Source of the DNA: a virus | DNA length: 41,998 nt | Virus record (IMG/VR): IMGVR_UViG_3300022890_000048 | Span: 1 to 41,998 of that record | Reading direction: 5' to 3' (one strand) | Shown: positions 17,000-41,998 of the stretch, in pieces | Position numbering within the stretch: the stretch's first letter is position 1 | Layout: every line of letters starts with the position of its first letter | Position numbers and translations under genes: made by a program | The notes under the pieces: model-generated | The model's database searches: none | The model's input: the letters and a program-made list of their open reading frames with translations, nothing else | Told to the model about the DNA's origin: nothing

Positions 17000-17021
17000 T
17001 TTTATACTTGATTAATCAACG

Positions 17022-17030
17022 TTTAAAAAA
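17022..17030 (+). promoter_or_regulatory. Late-type promoter upstream of HNH gene
   Basis: TTTAAAAAA within ATCAACGTTTAAAAAA, nearly the same as the prohead protease promoter. A leader of roughly 45 bases follows, containing ACAAGCGAGT twice (17053-17062 and 17078-17087). It could serve the HNH gene and the tail genes behind it. Confidence 0.6.
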
Positions 17031-17094
17031 CAAAAAAACAAAATACTATTGTACAAGCGAGTACAAAAGAGAAAACAACAAGCGAGTTGGAAAA

Positions 17095-17424
17095 ATGAAA
17101 AAGAAATGTATAGAATGTGAAAAAGAATTTGAAGTAAGTAAATATAATAATTATTCTGGTTTAAGGAAGGCTCATTCTTTTTGTTGTAAAGAATGTAAGG
17201 ACCGATTTTTCCATAAGGAATACGACCAACAAGAAAAAGTTAAGGCATTGCACAATGTTCGGGCAAAAGACCGATATAAATCGCGGGACAAAGAAAAGTT
17301 TTGTCAAGAGTGCGGTTCTGAAGAGAATGTGGAAATACATCACATCACCTATGATTTGGAAAATAATTATATTAAATTTTTATGTAGAAATTGTCATAGA
17401 AAACTACATAGGAGTTTTATATAA
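17095..17424 (+). CDS. HNH endonuclease, 109 aa, inserted in the neck-tail operon
   Basis: Two zinc modules. Residues 5-34 hold a CIEC plus FCCKEC treble-clef-like finger. Residues 70-101 hold FCQECG, the HH pair in IHHITY and CRNCHRKLH, the classic HNH nuclease site. Likely a selfish homing endonuclease. ATG 17095 is chosen because the frame upstream of it runs through the promoter. The stop overlaps the tail-terminator start (TAATG), so the insertion kept downstream coupling. Confidence 0.8.
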   Translation: MKKKCIECEKEFEVSKYNNYSGLRKAHSFCCKECKDRFFHKEYDQQEKVKALHNVRAKDRYKSRDKEKFCQECGSEENVEIHHITYDLENNYIKFLCRNCHRKLHRSFI

Positions 17425-32020: not shown

Positions 32021-32146
32021 ATGGAAGGAGTAACTCCAGAAGTCTGGAAGTGTGGTAAGTGTGGAAGAAAATTTTATGCACTGCGTGGATGCGATTGTGT
32101 AAGATTCCCAGAGATATACAAGAAAGATTCGGAGGATTTAGAATGA
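32021..32146 (+). CDS. Mini zinc-ribbon protein, 41 aa
   Basis: Contains WKCGKCGRKF and, after ten residues, CDC: a CxxC...CxC set that can bind one zinc. Joined by ATGA to the AbrB-like gene. One of several very short zinc proteins in this region. Confidence 0.55.
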   Translation: MEGVTPEVWKCGKCGRKFYALRGCDCVRFPEIYKKDSEDLE

Positions 32147-32304
32147 AACCAACAATAACAAGAACAAGAACTATTTATGAGGGAGATAAGATCAAGAAGC
32201 TAATAGCAATCAAGGTAGTCAAAAAGGCAGGCAACTCGGGGCACGTGATCCTACCAAAAGAACTAATTGGAAAAGAGGTAAAGATACAATATGATTTGCA
32301 ATAA
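32143..32304 (+). CDS. AbrB/SpoVT-like small DNA-binding protein, 53 aa
   Basis: The C-terminal part, VVKKAGNSGHVILPKELIGK, is a swapped-hairpin AbrB motif (K-x-G-N-S-x-x-V-x-x-P-K-E-L). These dimers act as transition-state regulators or antitoxins. The ATG at 32143 follows a GGAGG site and overlaps the zinc-ribbon stop; starts further upstream in this frame would lie in that other gene. Confidence 0.75.
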   Translation: MKPTITRTRTIYEGDKIKKLIAIKVVKKAGNSGHVILPKELIGKEVKIQYDLQ

Positions 32305-32413: not shown

Positions 32414-32723
32414 ACTTAAAACTTTGAAAGATATGAATTTACCAATATTGTTTCATAACTTTTATGAAGAAGAAGCTGATAAGGTTGGTTGGGAAACTAA
32501 TAGAAAATGCAGAGTAAAGTTTGATGACCTTCCAGAAACAAATCAAGAAACAATGATTAGAACTTGTGAGAGGATTAAAAATAAACTAAAAGCCGAAGCT
32601 GTGAAATGGATTAAGCATTGGAGAAATTTAGACCAACATTGTCCAAAGTGCGATATATGGAATGAAAAAAGACAAGACGACATGATGCACTTCTTCAATC
32701 TCACAGAGGAGGATTTGAAATGA
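32406..32723 (+). CDS. Hypothetical protein with CxxC, 105 aa
   Basis: A helical protein with a Cys at NRKCRV, another in RTCERI, and HCPKCD near residue 85, which may together hold a zinc ion. It resembles short phage proteins annotated as DUF. The end EEDLK is part of the cassette sequence shared with the next genes. Confidence 0.55.
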   Translation: MNKLKTLKDMNLPILFHNFYEEEADKVGWETNRKCRVKFDDLPETNQETMIRTCERIKNKLKAEAVKWIKHWRNLDQHCPKCDIWNEKRQDDMMHFFNLTEEDLK

Positions 32724-32728
32724 GTTTA
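32711..32728 (+). repeat. RBS-stop-start cassette, copy 2
   Basis: Identical to 2878-2895. It is followed by AAGTGATAAAGAA, also shared with copy 3, so both downstream proteins start MSLSDKE. Confidence 0.75.
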
Positions 32729-32902
32729 AGTGATAAAGAAGTTAAGATTATTAATCCGAATGGGGAAAAGGGAATTGGTTTTTATTTCCCAGCAGGAGAG
32801 GTCAAAGAATTTATTAAAGAGTTGAAGAAAAGAATCCCAGACGCATACAAAGTCCATGTTGTATTTTTAATTGACAAACTTGCAGGGGAGGATTTGAAAT
32901 GA
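32720..32902 (+). CDS. Hypothetical protein, 60 aa (cassette family)
   Basis: Starts MSLSDKEVKIINPNGEKG and contains VKEFIKELKKRI, ending LAGEDLK. The start, the VKEFIK core and the end are shared with the next protein, while the middle differs, which points to duplication and exchange of the central part. No cysteines. Function unknown. Confidence 0.55.
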   Translation: MSLSDKEVKIINPNGEKGIGFYFPAGEVKEFIKELKKRIPDAYKVHVVFLIDKLAGEDLK

Positions 32903-32907
32903 GTTTA
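32890..32907 (+). repeat. RBS-stop-start cassette, copy 3
   Basis: Same 18 bases as copies 1 and 2, and within a longer match to copy 4: CTTGCAGGGGAGGATTTGAA also precedes 33150. Confidence 0.75.
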
Positions 32908-33153
32908 AGTGATAAAGAATGTAATATTATAATAAATAAAGTTGATTTAAATAAATATCAAACTATTGGGGATTTAGAAATAAGAGGAAAAGAATCTTTA
33001 GAATGGAAAAAAGGATTTTTTAAAGAAAATGTCAAAGAATTTATTAAAAAGGTTGAAGATGATATATTGAAGAATTTTGCGTTTGTGAATGAGGAAACAG
33101 AAGACTTAGCTATTGAGGCATTACATGAACTTGCAGGGGAGGATTTGAAATGA
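32899..33153 (+). CDS. Hypothetical protein, 84 aa (cassette family)
   Basis: A paralogue of the preceding gene: MSLSDKE at the start, NVKEFIKKVEDDI in the middle and ELAGEDLK at the end. It is longer by a central insert (KYQTIGDLEIRGKESLEWKK). Coupled on both sides by ATGA. Confidence 0.55.
   Translation: MSLSDKECNIIINKVDLNKYQTIGDLEIRGKESLEWKKGFFKENVKEFIKKVEDDILKNFAFVNEETEDLAIEALHELAGEDLK
33141..33153 (+). repeat. RBS-stop-start cassette, shortened copy 4
   Basis: Only the ribosome binding and ATGA part (GGATTTGAAATGA) is kept. The next gene starts differently (MNDRKNK), so the cassette boundary lies at the start codon. Confidence 0.65.
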
Positions 33154-33837: not shown

Positions 33838-34171
33838 ATCAATGCGGAAGGACAAGAAAGGAATTAAGGTTGGAGATATTTGGTATAGCAACTTTAATCA
33901 GAATGTCCCATGCGAATGGAAGGACAAAGTAAAGGTTGAATATGAGATAACCGAGAAAGATGGAAGAACATATCACAACTGGGCCAAGATAGAAGTCTTG
34001 GAGAAAGGAGAAGCACCACGAGCGCCAGAAACAGAAACAAGAATTAAAGTGGATGCCGGAAACTGTGTATTAAGGGGAACTGAACTGTTCGTAGCAGGAA
34101 AGACAGAAACCTTAATGTCAGGTACACTGGAAGCAGTAGCCGCATTTAAGGCAGCAGAAAACGAGTTATGA
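33812..34171 (+). CDS. OB-fold-like protein, 119 aa (possible ssDNA-binding)
   Basis: Residues 1-62 look like a five-strand OB barrel: VEGIVESMRKDKKGIKVGDI, WYSNF, VKVEYEI, TYHNWAKIEVL. The C-terminal part (KTETLMSGTLEAVAAFKAAE) is helical. OB proteins of this size in viruses often bind single-stranded DNA. If so, this is the only replication-related protein visible here. Confidence 0.5.
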   Translation: MENVEGIVESMRKDKKGIKVGDIWYSNFNQNVPCEWKDKVKVEYEITEKDGRTYHNWAKIEVLEKGEAPRAPETETRIKVDAGNCVLRGTELFVAGKTETLMSGTLEAVAAFKAAENEL

Positions 34172-34608
34172 AACGTTTTTATGAATTGTCTGGGCATCAG
34201 CAATGGGTTGAAATAGAAAATGGAACTATATTGAAATTCAGCTGTAGTTGCCCAGACTTTTCTTTTAGGAAACTAAAGAAAATTGGAAAGGGACCAGATG
34301 CAAAGGTAATAAGTGTTGGAGAATGTAAACACCTCAAAACAGTATTGGGGATACTAAACATGCATAAGGATCAAACAAGCAAGCATCTAAATGGACCAAC
34401 AAAGATGACCAAAGAACTAAAGAATTTGATAATGGAAAGATCTAAAGGGTTATGCGAGGCACACAGATGCTCAAATGAAGGGGCAGATTTCCATAGAATA
34501 ATCAGAGGATCACATGGGGGAAAATATACTAAAGAGAATACAGTTTATTTATGCTCAAAACATCACAAGATATTTCATGCCGGAGAGTTTAAATCACAAT
34601 CGAAATAG
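34168..34608 (+). CDS. SWIM zinc finger fused to HNH-like nuclease domain
   Basis: A 146-residue protein with two zinc modules. Residues about 25-55 carry a SWIM motif, CSCPDF then ECKHL (CxC...CxH). Residues about 95-140 carry an HNH-like fold, with Cys residues in GLCEAHRC, H-R-I-I-R-G at the first catalytic position and CSKHHKIFH as the second zinc and His element. SWIM domains bind DNA or proteins. A fusion with HNH is unusual and suggests a targeted nuclease. Confidence 0.65.
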   Translation: MKRFYELSGHQQWVEIENGTILKFSCSCPDFSFRKLKKIGKGPDAKVISVGECKHLKTVLGILNMHKDQTSKHLNGPTKMTKELKNLIMERSKGLCEAHRCSNEGADFHRIIRGSHGGKYTKENTVYLCSKHHKIFHAGEFKSQSK

Positions 34609-34619
34609 GCGCAGGAAAC

Positions 34620-34691
34620 ATGTTCCTCATTGTAGGGGCATGGTTGGCTTGGCAGATAATTGCCTGGTTCCTCGTACAAGCAACAAAATAA
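34620..34691 (+). CDS. Very short membrane peptide, 23 aa
   Basis: A single hydrophobic helix (MFLIVGAWLAWQIIAWFLVQ). A CAGGA sequence lies just upstream. It fills the gap between two nuclease genes. Too short for certainty. Confidence 0.3.
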   Translation: MFLIVGAWLAWQIIAWFLVQATK

Positions 34692-34692
34692 A

Positions 34693-35004
34693 ATGGACAA
34701 GCAAAAAGAAGAACAAAAAATGAAGAAGCTGAAAGACAAGCTCTGGGCTATCAAAGTTAAAGAGATGGCTGGTGGAAAGTGTGCAATCTGTGGAAAAACA
34801 GAATATCTAAACGCACATCATATAATCCCAAGAGAAGTAGCAGACTCAAGATGGGAACCCTTAAATGGGATAGCTTTATGTCCACTTCATCATAAATTTT
34901 CAAGAGAGATCTCTGCGCATAAAAATCCCTTAGCATTTTTTGCTTGGATGACAGAGCATAGAGAAACACAATTAAAACTTTTACTGAGCAAATGCAAGAA
35001 ATGA
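34693..35004 (+). CDS. HNH endonuclease, 103 aa
   Basis: Zinc site CAICG, then AHHIIPREVADSRW with the catalytic His pair, an Asn in LNGIALC and LCPLHHKF at the end. A compact HNH nuclease of the phage type. Not inside a recognisable gene, so it may be a virus nuclease or a homing endonuclease. ATG 34693 has no clear ribosome binding site. Confidence 0.8.
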   Translation: MDKQKEEQKMKKLKDKLWAIKVKEMAGGKCAICGKTEYLNAHHIIPREVADSRWEPLNGIALCPLHHKFSREISAHKNPLAFFAWMTEHRETQLKLLLSKCKK

Positions 35005-35321
35005 TAAATACATCAATAGAAACAGAAGAGAAACCAAGAAAAATAAGCCCAAACAATGTATACTATTGGGCAGAGCAAGAAGGAATCTTAGTTGGATCAC
35101 AAAAATCAAAGGCTAAGAAGTTCTTAGAGAAAGGATGCGTTCAATATCAAGGAGAAGGACAATGGAAAGTACTCCCAATAATTGGATACAACAAGACAAC
35201 ACACGAAGTAGACATGTTAAATAGAACTTGTAAATGTCAGTTTTTCAGAAAGACTGGAAGTGATTGCTCACACATTAAAGCAGTAGAATTAAAAATATTC
35301 ATGGACAAATGGAACAATTAA
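35001..35321 (+). CDS. SWIM zinc-finger protein, 106 aa
   Basis: Residues about 75-95 form a SWIM motif: CKCQFF and then CSHIKAVEL (CxC...CxH). The N-terminal 60 residues (NNVYYWAEQEGILVG) may form a helical DNA-binding part. It overlaps the HNH stop by ATGA. It is the second SWIM protein within 1 kb, so the two may act together. An in-frame ATG three codons earlier is possible. Confidence 0.65.
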   Translation: MINTSIETEEKPRKISPNNVYYWAEQEGILVGSQKSKAKKFLEKGCVQYQGEGQWKVLPIIGYNKTTHEVDMLNRTCKCQFFRKTGSDCSHIKAVELKIFMDKWNN

Positions 35322-35325
35322 ATAA

Positions 35326-35409
35326 GCGGTCAAGGTTGCCTTGGTAGGCAAAGAGTTTTGAAATAGAAAACCTGTAAAATTGTAGTGGGTTCGAATCCTG
35401 CTGACCGCA
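35326..35409 (+). tRNA. tRNA-like gene, anticodon not assignable
   Basis: A perfect seven-pair acceptor stem (GCGGTCA with TGACCGC) followed by an A, and a canonical T-loop (GGGTTCGAATCC). The 84-base length suits a type II tRNA (Leu or Ser). The core is odd: the base at position 8 is A rather than T, and the only strong anticodon stem (GTTTT/AAAAC) has a loop, GAAATAG, without the conserved T before the anticodon. It may have an intron, be degenerate, or be a tRNA mimic. Confidence 0.55.
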
Positions 35410-37476: not shown

Positions 37477-38733
37477 ATGGAAAAATTAGTAGTGGTAATA
37501 ATGGGGCAGAACTGTGAGAAGTTTATAGGTATGGCCCTGGATTCTGTTTCGGATGCAGACGAAATAATTTATTGTGATGGGGGAAGCACAGATGATACAC
37601 TGCACATAGTGGGTAATAATTTCGATCCAGATGACAAAACTATCAGTGGGGAGATAATAGAAAACAAGTATGATCAAGAAGATAAACAGATGAATGGAAA
37701 ACAAAGGAACTTTTATTTAGACCATTTAAAGAAGAAATATCCCGGTTGGTGGTGCTTGGCTATAGATGCAGACGAAGTAGTAGAAGACTTAACTAAGATT
37801 AAAGAGTTCATACAAAAAGCAGATCCAGAAAGATTATACAACCCAAAGATGAGGCATTTTATTGGAGACTTAGGACACGAAGATGCAACAGTGCCTGAAC
37901 ATTTTGTATATGGAAGATTATTTAAAATAAAGAGTGAATTGGAATATCCCTTGAGAGAACATTCAATAATAGTAATGGGAAAGAGAAGCGTAGATTATGT
38001 TAATGTCCGACCAACAACCATCTGGCACATGGCTTATTGCTCAGCATGTTGGGATTACAAAAAGAGATATAAAAACCACCTGGCAAAGTCAAAGATGCAT
38101 TCCCCGGAATTCTTAGATCATTGGTATAAAGACCATTTATTCGGACAGTACCCAAAAAGCCCAGTTAACCCATTGGATATCCCAGAAACAATATTGAAAG
38201 AATTTGAAATAGATAAGGATGAGTTTTATTTTCAAAATAGAGGATTAGAATTAAGGCATTTTCTTATGTTTAAGAATTGGTTTGATAAGTTTAATCCTAA
38301 GAGGGTGTTAGAATTTGGATGTGGATTTGGGCCATACGGAGTTGCAGCAACATATCTTGGATGCAAATACTCAGGAGTAGAAATAAGTAAGTATGCTACA
38401 TTAAAGAATCCGTTCTCATTGGATCTCATCAGGGGAGATATAACTAATGATTTGACACTCCCGGAATCTGACTTAGTCCTTGTGATAGATGTCCTGGAAC
38501 ATTTAGAGGAAGAAGAATTAAATAAAACATTGGGTAATATTGCTAAACACGGAAAGAACTATGTCTTTTCAATACCATATTTTGGTGATCCAAACCTTGA
38601 AGCAGATCCAACACATAAGATTAAACAGAAAAAAGAGTGGTGGGTAAAGAAACTTGAAAAGCATTTTAAAATAAAAGAAGTACCAAGTAATTGGTTGTTT
38701 AAAGAACAAATGTTGATAGGAGAGAAAAAATGA
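37477..38733 (+). CDS. GT2-like glycosyltransferase fused to class I methyltransferase
   Basis: A 418-residue two-domain protein. Residues 1-210 are GT-A/GT2-like: CDGGSTDDTLHIV near residue 28 and AIDADEVVEDL near residue 95 (DxD-like metal site). Residues about 260-418 are an AdoMet methyltransferase: VLEFGCGFGPYGVAATYLG (motif I), then LVIDVLEHLEEEEL (motif IV-type). It could add a sugar and then methylate the glycan. Overlaps the epimerase start by ATGA. Confidence 0.8.
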   Translation: MEKLVVVIMGQNCEKFIGMALDSVSDADEIIYCDGGSTDDTLHIVGNNFDPDDKTISGEIIENKYDQEDKQMNGKQRNFYLDHLKKKYPGWWCLAIDADEVVEDLTKIKEFIQKADPERLYNPKMRHFIGDLGHEDATVPEHFVYGRLFKIKSELEYPLREHSIIVMGKRSVDYVNVRPTTIWHMAYCSACWDYKKRYKNHLAKSKMHSPEFLDHWYKDHLFGQYPKSPVNPLDIPETILKEFEIDKDEFYFQNRGLELRHFLMFKNWFDKFNPKRVLEFGCGFGPYGVAATYLGCKYSGVEISKYATLKNPFSLDLIRGDITNDLTLPESDLVLVIDVLEHLEEEELNKTLGNIAKHGKNYVFSIPYFGDPNLEADPTHKIKQKKEWWVKKLEKHFKIKEVPSNWLFKEQMLIGEKK

Positions 38734-39539
38734 AAGTATTAATTACTGGAAGTCAAGGATTTGTAGGGCACAATCTATACAGAAGACTTGAGAAAATGGG
38801 ACTTAAGGTTTTTGGTGTGGATAAAGTAAATAACAAATATAAGCAGAACTTCAAAAAGATGGACTTAACAAAAGAAAAAATAAAAGAGAAGTTTGATTTG
38901 ATATTCCATCTCGCATCAGATGTCGGAGGAGCAAATTATATTAATGGAGACAATTACAAGTACGACATCTTATCAAACAACATGAAGATCGATTTAAACA
39001 TTGTAGAATATTGTAAAAAGAAAAAAGTGAACTTAGTTTATTTTTCAAGTTCATGTGCTACAGAAGGACAAAATACTTATGGAATTAGCAAGAATTTATC
39101 TGAAGAATTAATCTTGAATTCTGGAATAACCTTTTTAATAGTGCGTCCACAAAATATCTATGGTCCCGGAGATAGAAAAAGAGGAGTTAAAGAACAAGTT
39201 ATAATGGCTTTATTTAGAAAGATACTGCATGAAAAAGAAATAATTCTTTGGAATGGAAGATCTATGCGTAGTTTTATTCATGTGGAAGAGTTATTAGATA
39301 GAATCTTTGTTGCGTGTCAATACCCAAATCATATAGAGGAAATTGGTGGTGAATGGATAACAATAAGGAAACTTGCAGAAAAGATAATGAAAGTATGTTC
39401 TGAGAAAAAAAATGTTATTGATGAAAAAATATATGAAAAGAAGAAAAGATATTTGAATTTTAAAAAGACAGAAATTAAATTGATGGATGGATTAAAGGAG
39501 GTTTACGATGACTACATTAATAATGCCCACAAGAAATAA
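38730..39539 (+). CDS. NAD-dependent sugar epimerase/dehydratase (extended SDR)
   Basis: A 269-residue protein. The NAD-binding TGSQGFVGHNL lies at residues 6-16, the DLTKEKIKEKFDLIFHLAS region follows, and the catalytic Y-x-x-x-K (TYGISKNLSEEL) is near residue 117 after SSSCATEG. Such enzymes convert NDP-sugars (epimerase or dehydratase). It supplies the nearby transferases with a changed sugar donor. The 3' end overlaps the next gene by 32 bases. Confidence 0.85.
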   Translation: MKVLITGSQGFVGHNLYRRLEKMGLKVFGVDKVNNKYKQNFKKMDLTKEKIKEKFDLIFHLASDVGGANYINGDNYKYDILSNNMKIDLNIVEYCKKKKVNLVYFSSSCATEGQNTYGISKNLSEELILNSGITFLIVRPQNIYGPGDRKRGVKEQVIMALFRKILHEKEIILWNGRSMRSFIHVEELLDRIFVACQYPNHIEEIGGEWITIRKLAEKIMKVCSEKKNVIDEKIYEKKKRYLNFKKTEIKLMDGLKEVYDDYINNAHKK

Positions 39540-40152
39540 TAAAGAATCTTTCAGACAAGCAATGATGTCTATATTAGAAACAGTGGATGAAGAATACAAA
39601 TTGATAATAGTAGAATCAGAAAGCACAGATGGAACTGCACAATTGGCAGATAGCTATGCAAACAATCATGAACACATAGAGGTATACCATACAAAGAAAG
39701 CCGGATTAGTTAAAGCATTCAACTTCGGCATGAGAAAAGCCAAAGGGGATGTTTGTTTAATTCATGATGACGTGATCTTCCCAAGATTATATAAAAAGTG
39801 TTGGTTAAGAGAATTAAAGAAATTGAAAGGGCCAAATGTTGGAATAATAACCTGTGTAAATGGTGGGGGATTGAGCGGACCAGACTATTTAAACGGGCTT
39901 TATTGGGTTGGAACCTGGTGCATGTACATCCCAGAAGAAACAAGAAAAGAGATTGGAGTATTAGATGGAACATTTAAAGTAGGGGACGACATAGATTATT
40001 CGTATAGAGTTATCAATGCTGGAAAGAAGATAATCATTGCAGACTTTTCAGTAAATCATCACAGAACAGGATCCCATGTAGAAGATCAAGGAGACTTCCA
40101 CGAGTTAGTAGTCAAAATGGGAAATAAATTCAAGAAGAAACACAACCGATGA
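39508..40152 (+). CDS. GT2-family glycosyltransferase
   Basis: A 214-residue GT-A enzyme. The start MTTLIMPTRNNKESFRQAM is the usual GT2 opening; VESESTDGTAQLAD binds the nucleotide, GDVCLIHDDVIFP carries the metal-binding Asp pair near residue 87, and KVGDDIDYSYRV holds the catalytic ED-like site. ATG 39508 is chosen for a perfect AAGGAGG eight bases upstream. Compact, without membrane helices. Confidence 0.85.
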   Translation: MTTLIMPTRNNKESFRQAMMSILETVDEEYKLIIVESESTDGTAQLADSYANNHEHIEVYHTKKAGLVKAFNFGMRKAKGDVCLIHDDVIFPRLYKKCWLRELKKLKGPNVGIITCVNGGGLSGPDYLNGLYWVGTWCMYIPEETRKEIGVLDGTFKVGDDIDYSYRVINAGKKIIIADFSVNHHRTGSHVEDQGDFHELVVKMGNKFKKKHNR

Positions 40153-40994
40153 TATCAATAGACATAGCAACAAGAGATCGACCATGTGAACTGGCATTAT
40201 TACTGCAAAGTTTAAGAACCCAAACGCACCAAGAGTTCGATATTTTTATTTTGGATGACATGTCTGGAACTCCATTAAATAATTATCATTTCTTAAATAT
40301 GATTATCGCAAGAATGAAATTAGAAGGGCATAAAATTAGTGTAGAAAGAACAGAATACAATCATGGAGTAAGTAAAGCCAGACACGTATTAGCAGAAAAG
40401 TCAATGGATTATGAGTATATTTTAAGAGTAGATGATGATGTAATTCTTGCAAAGGATTATCTGGAAAGAATGTTAAAAGTAATAAAAGCAGGATATGATA
40501 TAGCAAGCGGAGTAACTCCGACAATGGGCCCGCAATTTATTAGAAACTCCAAGATGGTAGAAAAGGCAAACGAAGTATGTTTCGAGGGAGATAAAATAGT
40601 ATATGACGGTGACGACTGTGGAATAGAATATACAGATGACAAGATCGTACCAGCTGACCATTTCAGATCATGCGCACTCATCAAAAGGGAAGTGCATAAA
40701 CAAGTCAAGTATTGGCCAACAAGACTGACAAAGCACGGATATAGGGAAGAAACCCTCTTCAGTTTCAACGCGGTCATGAAAGGATTCAAGATTGGTGTTG
40801 ATTTGGGGGCAAATGCATGGCATTTGATGACCCCCTCTGGAGGAGAGAGATTCGCCGAGTCAAATCAGATGATCCAACAGAACCAAAAGATGTTAAACGA
40901 ATTTATCGCTGAAAATAGGGCCGAACTAAAAGCCAATTTCAAAGGAAAGGTAAGCAAACTTAAACTAAAGAAGGAAACAAACTTAGTAAAATGA
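40149..40994 (+). CDS. GT2-type glycosyltransferase
   Basis: A 281-residue GT-A enzyme. Motifs: IATRDRPCELALLLQSL at the start, FILDDMSGT, EYILRVDDDVILAKDYL with a triple Asp near residue 98, and HGYREETLFSFNAVMKG near residue 200 (donor/acceptor ED motif). The C-terminus is basic and coiled. Coupled by ATGA to the ClpP-like gene. Confidence 0.85.
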   Translation: MISIDIATRDRPCELALLLQSLRTQTHQEFDIFILDDMSGTPLNNYHFLNMIIARMKLEGHKISVERTEYNHGVSKARHVLAEKSMDYEYILRVDDDVILAKDYLERMLKVIKAGYDIASGVTPTMGPQFIRNSKMVEKANEVCFEGDKIVYDGDDCGIEYTDDKIVPADHFRSCALIKREVHKQVKYWPTRLTKHGYREETLFSFNAVMKGFKIGVDLGANAWHLMTPSGGERFAESNQMIQQNQKMLNEFIAENRAELKANFKGKVSKLKLKKETNLVK

Positions 40995-41557
40995 TTGGGC
41001 AAGGAGAGGAGAAGAAAGAACCAAAACCGAGCAAGACGACGATAACAAAGACTCCGATTGGGTACAAATACTTTGTCGTTTTTCCGAACACCATAGATGA
41101 CGAAGCCCCGGAATTTTTAGATCTGGTAAACCTCTTGAACAAGGCGTCAGAGAAAGATGAGGTGGAGCTTGTTCTAAATTGTCGCGGGGGTTCTGTTGAT
41201 ACCACAGTATTAATAGTAAATACTATAAGAGAATCAAAGGCAACCGTGACCACGATTTTAAATGGGGGGGCGTATTCTGGTGGTTCGTGCATCTTTCTTG
41301 CTGGGGATAAAAAGATAGTCAAACCAAATTCCTCTTTCATGGCCCATTACTATAGTTCTGAGGTTAGGGGGAAAGGAACAGATTTGGAATCTCGGGCAGA
41401 CTTTTGCAAGAAGCAGATGGGGGCTTTTTATAGGGACATCTACAAGGGGTTCTTATCGGATAAAGAGATCGACGACGTTTTATCTGGAAAGGATATCTGG
41501 CTGCTTGGGACGCAAGTAGAAAGGAGATTAAAAAGGGGAAGGGGCAAAAAACAATGA
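40991..41557 (+). CDS. ClpP-like serine protease
   Basis: A 188-residue protein with the ClpP/crotonase fold: VELVLNCRGGSVDTTVLIVN (oxyanion region), NGGAYSGGSCIFLAGD with the candidate catalytic Ser near residue 95, and SSFMAHYYSS with the catalytic His near residue 118. The end is basic. No ClpX-type ATPase is nearby. In tailed phages ClpP-like enzymes are often prohead proteases, but here one already exists at 12899, and this gene sits in the sugar operon. It may process surface or envelope proteins. Confidence 0.8.
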   Translation: MIGQGEEKKEPKPSKTTITKTPIGYKYFVVFPNTIDDEAPEFLDLVNLLNKASEKDEVELVLNCRGGSVDTTVLIVNTIRESKATVTTILNGGAYSGGSCIFLAGDKKIVKPNSSFMAHYYSSEVRGKGTDLESRADFCKKQMGAFYRDIYKGFLSDKEIDDVLSGKDIWLLGTQVERRLKRGRGKKQ

Positions 41558-41772: not shown

Positions 41773-41998
41773 TTAATATAATCGGAACAATTTGGGGCAC
41801 ACAAGGATATGCAATCCATTCAAGAAACCTTGCTCGGGCAATAGATAATGAATGTGGGGCTAAGTTAACAACAGACCTAATACAAGGATGGGAAACTCAA
41901 GTCAACGATCAAGAGTTAAAAATGTTAAAGGAAAATGGAGAATATGACACCAATATCATAATCGCACAGCCAAATGCCTGGAGAATGTATACTGAAAG
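41769..41998 (+). CDS. Split GT4 glycosyltransferase, N-terminal half (5' part of gene)
   Basis: Starts MINIIGTIWGTQGYAIHSRN, where the Gly loop (GTQGYAIHSRNLARA) is the acceptor-side glycine motif of GT-B enzymes. The frame continues past the window end into bases 1-271 with no break, giving 139 residues. Coupled by ATGA to the previous gene. See the entry at 1-271 for the break by the HNH gene. Confidence 0.8.
   Translation, partial: MINIIGTIWGTQGYAIHSRNLARAIDNECGAKLTTDLIQGWETQVNDQELKMLKENGEYDTNIIIAQPNAWRMYTE
41918..41998. repeat. 81-bp terminal direct repeat, right copy
   Basis: Exact copy of bases 1-81; I compared them base by base across both ends. The unique genome is thus 41,917 bp. 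Either a true circle or a circularly permuted, headful-packaged genome would give this. Confidence 0.95.

Follow-up and report, generated by a model that had tools for sequence, protein, structure and literature searches.

What a SWIM zinc finger does when it is joined to an HNH-like domain in a viral protein is the question raised by an open reading frame (ORF) in IMG/VR virus record IMGVR_UViG_3300022890_000048. The window analyzed here is the whole stretch of 41,998 nucleotides, positions 1 to 41,998 of that record. Its ends carry an exact 81-base direct repeat (1-81 and 41918-41998), which suggests that the window is a complete genome. Terminase, portal/minor head, tape measure, and tail genes were recognized in it, and the terminase was nearest to those of Flavobacterium phage 11b and Cellulophaga phage phi10:1 (45%). 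The features of the locus are listed in Table 1.

Table 1. Features of the SWIM-HNH locus (window coordinates)
Feature	Position	Strand	Remarks
Upstream ORF, 119 aa	33812..34171	+	4-base overlap (ATGA) with fusion start
SWIM-HNH fusion ORF	34168..34608	+	146 aa, one open frame
SWIM finger of fusion	aa 1-76 = 34168-34395	+	conserved motif
HNH part of fusion	aa about 81-141 = 34408-34590	+	conserved motif, AF2 model, HNH fold matches
Compact HNH nuclease, 103 aa	34693..35004	+	likely ATG 34693; frame open from 34660; HNH_2
Second SWIM zinc-finger protein, 109 aa	34992..35321	+	PF04434 24.5 bits, above cut-off

Several other elements were observed elsewhere in the window. Further HNH-type ORFs were found by profile at 268-681 and 17008-17424 and appeared homing-like by eye. 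The region 32696-33153 contains a tandem gene duplication, with two small ORFs with related starts and a 26-base block holding GGAGGATTTGAAATGA in three copies. The ORF at 32059-32304 matched DUF2080 above the cut-off (25.6 versus 21.5 bits), a family that is named as transposon encoded and is mostly archaeal. Downstream of the locus, at 38730-41557, genes for a nucleotide-sugar epimerase, a GtrB-like protein, a glycosyltransferase, and a ClpP-like protein (ATP-dependent protease) are located.

A sequence-only reading of this DNA had claimed that the protein starting at 34168 is a SWIM-HNH fusion. The claim was borne out, as both motifs are present in the open frame and both halves are kept in relatives. 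In the ORF translation, the SWIM motif reads C26xC28...C53-K54-H55, and the HNH residues are C96/C101, H109, N124, C129, H132/H133, and H137. Pfam placed both halves below the cut-off (SWIM, 14.2 versus 19.6 bits; HNH, 14.7 versus 21.4 bits). The SWIM family PF04434 scored 15.7 bits on the fused protein of a relative (L012) and gave no match up to an E value of 1 in three other viruses (G155, G156, and G158). PHROGs HNH families matched the second half with E values of up to 5.6e-7. A regular expression for the full SWIM plus HNH arrangement was matched by none of 100000 shuffles of the fusion protein, and only three window ORFs of at least 45 aa (the fusion, the compact HNH, and the second SWIM ORF) fit either of the two regular expressions.

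Relatives were searched for in IMG/VR with an HNH pattern common to the window and L012 that was written without any SWIM term. The scan returned 10 stretches: one from the same virus, two chance matches, and seven true relatives. The chance matches (L051 and L053) were left out because the pattern lay outside any ORF of that frame. Four of the seven relatives (L012, L050, L052, and L056) encode a fused SWIM-HNH protein that is 36 to 42% identical to the window protein. In L054/L061, SWIM and HNH are encoded by two genes overlapping by 38 bases; the L061 SWIM gene aligned with the window protein with 46% identity over 67 columns (E value of 4e-20 for that single comparison). A possible -1 frameshift between these two genes was considered and dropped, as the HNH frame, read by eye, is +1. 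In L055/L062, a SWIM-like gene stands on its own roughly 1 kb upstream of the HNH gene; its match to PF04434 in L055 (E value of 0.013) was below the cut-off. The seventh HNH gene (L057) lies at a contig end. A SWIM finger is therefore fused to or overlapping the HNH gene in five of the seven relatives and nearby in a sixth, though it was absent from the pattern used to find them. L012, unlike the other relatives, had already been found earlier through its SWIM. A SWIM pattern returned 13 stretches, of which 12 carried a SWIM ORF; fusion to HNH was seen only in L012 and in L017, which belongs to the same virus.

Alignment of these sequences was used to check the catalytic residues of the HNH part, and all catalytic positions were found to be present. 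The spacing from H109 to N124 (15 residues) and from H109 to H133 (24 residues) is the same in all eight HNH sequences. For six loci, the invariance of H109, R110, R113, GGKY, and N124 is built in by the search pattern; C96, C101, C129, C/H132, H133, and H137 all lie outside that pattern and are likewise kept in 8/8. The SWIM residues C26, C28, C53, K54, and H55 are kept in each of the six sequences with that half, four of which were found through the HNH pattern alone. PMC6212794 describes a similar catalytic set for TagI, His229-Asn245-His254 (spacing 16/25), with activation of water attributed to the first His and metal bound by the last.

The fold of the fusion protein was modeled with AF2. 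A first structure model based on 2 sequences was poor (pLDDT of 52) and was set aside. With 13 sequences, the ten-residue blocks of the HNH part (residues 81-140) reached a pLDDT of 70 to 95, with a mean of 87, and the secondary structure (E107-110, E125-128, and H130-138) followed the expected strand-strand-helix order. The SWIM half was modeled poorly, with blocks of 42 to 63 for residues 1-70. Comparison of the HNH half by VIA gave Z values of 6.7 to IscB, 6.6 to Cap5, 6.3 to EcoKMcrA, 6.1 to the Gme HNH nickase, 5.8 to ZRANB3, and 5.7 to T4 endonuclease VII; according to the tool's own note, such values alone are no proof of kinship. Foldseek against the PDB gave no match at an E value of 0.001 or better. 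By sequence, the best PDB relative of the HNH half was EcoKMcrA (6ghc; E value of 2.1e-7, HNH part only), and the best BFVD match was annotated as an McrA restriction endonuclease. The catalytic spacing, the modeled fold, and the zinc Cys/His pairs assign the second half of the fusion to the HNH (beta-beta-alpha-metal) class, and cutting is predicted for it.

The distribution of the fusion beyond these relatives was followed in further collections. Close-relative scans of viral contigs retrieved the fusion only from a fragment of the same virus (100% identical over the compared parts). Another scan returned 159 stretches, in which the only relatives were the same virus and the L012 contig; a scan of genome contigs returned 87 stretches, none of them a relative; and yet another returned six, one from the same virus and five not encoding the protein. 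One phage search gave five records at E values of 3 to 4, one of them annotated as SWIM type. Two more phage searches gave eight records each, none covering 80% of the query and all matching from query residue 58 or later. Further searches of phage collections and a search of a plasmid collection gave no match. A single stretch came from one scan, a SWIM-only ORF in a contig of a Methanobrevibacter MAG; the genome of this MAG contains two weak matches to the SWIM part (8.9e-4 and 0.045). In the phylum of this MAG, 11 of 151 genomes matched at an E value of 1e-6, all at profile positions 62 onward and in open frames of 347 to 431 aa. The portal was found in 0/151 of these genomes.

The virus lineage and the genomic surroundings were compared in the window and its relatives, which were sampled by the HNH motif itself and include several records that are fragments (coverage was 40,000 of 42,386 bases for G155, 40,000 of 42,737 for G157, and 20,000 of 22,503 for G159). 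All eight viruses fell into one single-linkage BLAST group for the portal/minor-head ORF, to which the window is linked by a short match (32% over about 130 residues). HNH identity tracked portal identity in seven viruses (r of 0.60, with 83 of 5040 permutations as high); G155 was left out of this comparison because its portal is partial. The HNH and portal trees agree only partly, and several supports are weak. The BLAST group of the small-terminase-like ORF contains six viruses, including the window. That of a winged-helix-like ORF also contains six, and the window is absent from it as well as from the group of the helical ORFs found upstream. Winged-helix-like ORFs lie less than 2 kb downstream of the gene in five of the eight viruses, not in the window. 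The large-terminase genes (terL) of seven carriers form two BLAST groups, one with G154, G156, G157, G159, and the window and one with G001 and G158; that of G155 could not be placed. The G154 portal has its nearest matches in tailed viruses of haloarchaea (27% identity, half its length aligned).

The start of the fusion gene overlaps the gene upstream. All six records that contain the fusion or the L061 pair show the ATGA overlap, not counting the same-virus record G002. In the window, the upstream ORF and the fusion are probably translationally coupled because of this 4-base overlap. The upstream gene itself varies: G154, G155, and G158 encode a related helical protein at this position, and other ORFs occupy it in the window, G156, and G001. 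The window's upstream ORF had no Pfam match up to an E value of 1 and no PADLOC match up to 0.1, and it matched PHROGs only at 0.07 or worse and the PDB only at 0.99 or worse. It also showed no similarity to the A3 family of relatives. That family occurs in G001, G155, and G156 and matches only PHROGs of unknown function; assigning it as a recombination protein would be a guess. An OB-fold or SSB reading of the upstream ORF and of the A3 family was made by eye only and was dropped, as the searches gave no support. The A3 family was not found in the window.

Genes for putative junction-processing nucleases were found near the fusion in several relatives. RusA scored above the cut-off in G155, 1.1 kb from the fusion or the pair, and in G156, 0.9 kb from it. 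A protein with a GFPDF...VECK motif, read by eye as PD-(D/E)XK-like, is encoded 0.4 kb (G154) and 0.1 kb (G158) away and at the far contig end in G001; Pfam, NCBIfam, and PDB searches with this protein gave nothing. Counting both kinds, four virus lineages have such a gene no more than 1.1 kb away, and a fifth has one at a distance. The window, G157, and G159 yielded neither gene, and no record yielded both, as if one resolvase replaced the other; several of these records are fragments. A Rad51-type protein (PF08423) was detected in all 14 control genomes and in none of nine virus records, several of them fragments; a partner of this type may also come from the host.

The compact HNH and the second SWIM ORF are both present downstream of the fusion as the sequence-only reading described, each above a Pfam cut-off. 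The compact HNH scored 30.7 bits to HNH_2 (cut-off, 21 bits), and the second SWIM ORF overlaps its end by 13 bases. The proposal that the three genes form a set did not hold: among 10 virus records, some of them fragments, only the window and the identical fragment G002 contain both downstream proteins, and none of the remaining records showed either one next to the fusion. A conserved three-gene module was therefore rejected, and on this evidence the two proteins are local neighbors of the fusion and not parts of one machine. The best relative of the compact HNH (L032, positions 161-508) overlaps the start of a large-terminase gene and is likely a packaging HNH; for this reason the compact HNH may itself serve packaging, with no tie to the fusion. 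The record with this relative (G160) contains the compact HNH and no SWIM (PF04434) match. Weak HNH matches in the same search were other HNH genes in G001 (three places) and the fusion-family HNH gene in G157. The second SWIM protein gave no match up to an E value of 0.1 in the phage collection, and a close-relative scan of viral contigs found only the same virus.

Two side observations concern these neighbors. In L033 and L034, which contain relatives of the compact HNH, TGA is apparently read as an amino acid. Reading it in this way raised the number of ORFs of at least 60 aa from 9 to 24 (L033) and from 5 to 20 (L034). The in-frame stops of the HNH frame are TGA in 4/4 and 3/3 cases, respectively, of which 3 and 2 align by eye with a glycine of the window protein. 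Just 3' of the second SWIM ORF, a tRNA-like element (35326-35409, plus strand) has a perfect acceptor stem and an odd anticodon loop. Rfam scored it at 27.4 bits as tRNA-Sec, below the 47-bit cut-off; ARAGORN did not find it under default settings and called it Ile-aat under relaxed settings.

The explanation we tentatively favor, at somewhat short of an even chance, is that the fusion is a small SWIM-targeted HNH nuclease or nickase that processes the virus's own replicating or recombining DNA. The nuclease is probably a working one because its HNH looks intact and the pairing with SWIM is kept in distant relatives. The N-terminal SWIM finger would bring the HNH nuclease to its target, either a DNA structure or a partner protein, and the HNH half would then cut or nick viral DNA during replication or recombination, acting beside or in place of a Holliday-junction-type nuclease. 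The gene would be one of the nonstructural, presumably early, genes of an uncultivated tailed virus lineage. Among the functions that the sequence-only reading had suggested, recombination fits the surroundings of the relatives best, given the nearby RusA or PD-(D/E)XK-like genes, of which the window has neither. A bolder version appears doubtful: SWIM-HNH would be a new class of nucleases directed by SWIM, either nickases of recombination intermediates or junction nucleases, and a core early gene of an undescribed tailed-virus lineage, possibly of archaea. In this version, the occurrence of fused, overlapping, and separate forms would show SWIM to be the usual partner that targets this HNH subfamily, and the SWIM proteins that belong to recombination mediators in eukaryotes would be tied directly to DNA cutting.

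Another suggested function, packaging, was weakened. An HNH protein assisting terminase cutting has a precedent in HK97 GP74, which promotes cos cleavage (PMC9410871). The gene lies upstream of terS, terL, or portal genes in G154, G158, G156, and G159, and the neighboring compact HNH has the relative that overlaps a terL gene. However, terminase is not a direct neighbor of the fusion: in the window the distance is about 26 kb by coordinates or about 14 kb across the end repeat, and in G154 the fusion lies about 4.8 kb upstream of terL. The division of the carriers' terL genes into two BLAST groups is also unlike what a terminase-matched partner would display. A packaging helper is therefore considered unlikely. 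A SWIM finger, or the fold around it, might instead read the state of DNA so that the HNH cuts foreign or host DNA while the virus is protected by its own methyltransferases. The McrA-type matches in the PDB and BFVD point in this direction. So do methyltransferase genes: ParB-methyltransferase-like ones occur in the window and its relatives, and G154 has another DNA methyltransferase (phrog_116) that is related to genes of G001 and G155. Sensor-plus-HNH architectures are described in PMC6212794. The McrA match, however, covers the generic HNH part only, the PADLOC matches are weak (a type IV REase model at 0.0031, on the same part), and the SWIM half, for which the model is weak, had no match among modified-base recognition domains. 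Such an anti-rival or anti-host, modification-sensing nuclease is improbable.

Homing genes are usually sporadic. A free-standing homing endonuclease with a SWIM DNA-binding part would agree with the other HNH genes of these viruses (the two in the window and several in G001) and with the annotation of some phage matches of the HNH half as homing endonucleases, but the SWIM-HNH pairing recurs in divergent viruses, the start overlap is constant, winged-helix-like ORFs follow downstream in most of the viruses (the window not among them), and HNH identity follows the portal in this HNH-sampled set. This reading is very unlikely. A noncatalytic DNA-binding or regulatory zinc protein is only slightly less so: SWS1, a SWIM protein, belongs to the Shu recombination mediator complex (PMC6821187), but fused relatives of the divergence given above retain the catalytic and zinc positions, some of which a degenerate pseudoenzyme would be expected to lose. 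These considerations leave the nuclease or nickase acting on the virus's own DNA as the preferred explanation.

If this explanation is true, the conserved nuclease would show SWIM directly guiding DNA cutting and would provide a first functional handle on the nonstructural genes of a largely unannotated virus lineage. With about 146 residues, the protein should be easy to express. Even if it is merely another small phage HNH protein, it adds a domain architecture unreported in the literature searched, in which no report of SWIM-HNH fusions was found. Nor did the phage and plasmid collections, at the limits applied, yield SWIM as an HNH targeting domain. Most known SWIM fingers belong to recombination mediators, SWI2/SNF2 proteins, and transposases.

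Comparison with known systems places the fusion among proteins with an N-terminal noncatalytic domain and a C-terminal HNH, as in EcoKMcrA, SRA-HNH TagI, and EVE-HNH VcaM4I. Its HNH half aligns with that of EcoKMcrA, as given above, whereas the whole protein is about half the length of 6ghc (287 residues), is viral, and carries a SWIM-type finger in place of NEco, SRA, or EVE. With IscB, Cap5, and the Gme HNH nickase, it has the beta-beta-alpha-metal fold in common (Z values of 6.1 to 6.7), for the HNH part only; the NCBIfam IscB model matched the HNH half of L050 at 1.6e-8 but with 34.1 bits versus a cut-off of 175. The fusion has the SWIM finger in common with Shu2/SWS1-type proteins, with a link to recombination as a working idea for the fusion. 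It differs from these in that its SWIM is joined to a predicted nuclease, and no Rad51-type partner was found in the nine virus records, several of them fragments. HK97 gp74 is likewise a small viral HNH protein, from which the fusion differs by its SWIM and by its position away from terminase in the window and G154. HNH proteins that carry an extra targeting domain are already known; SWIM in that role was absent from the literature searched.
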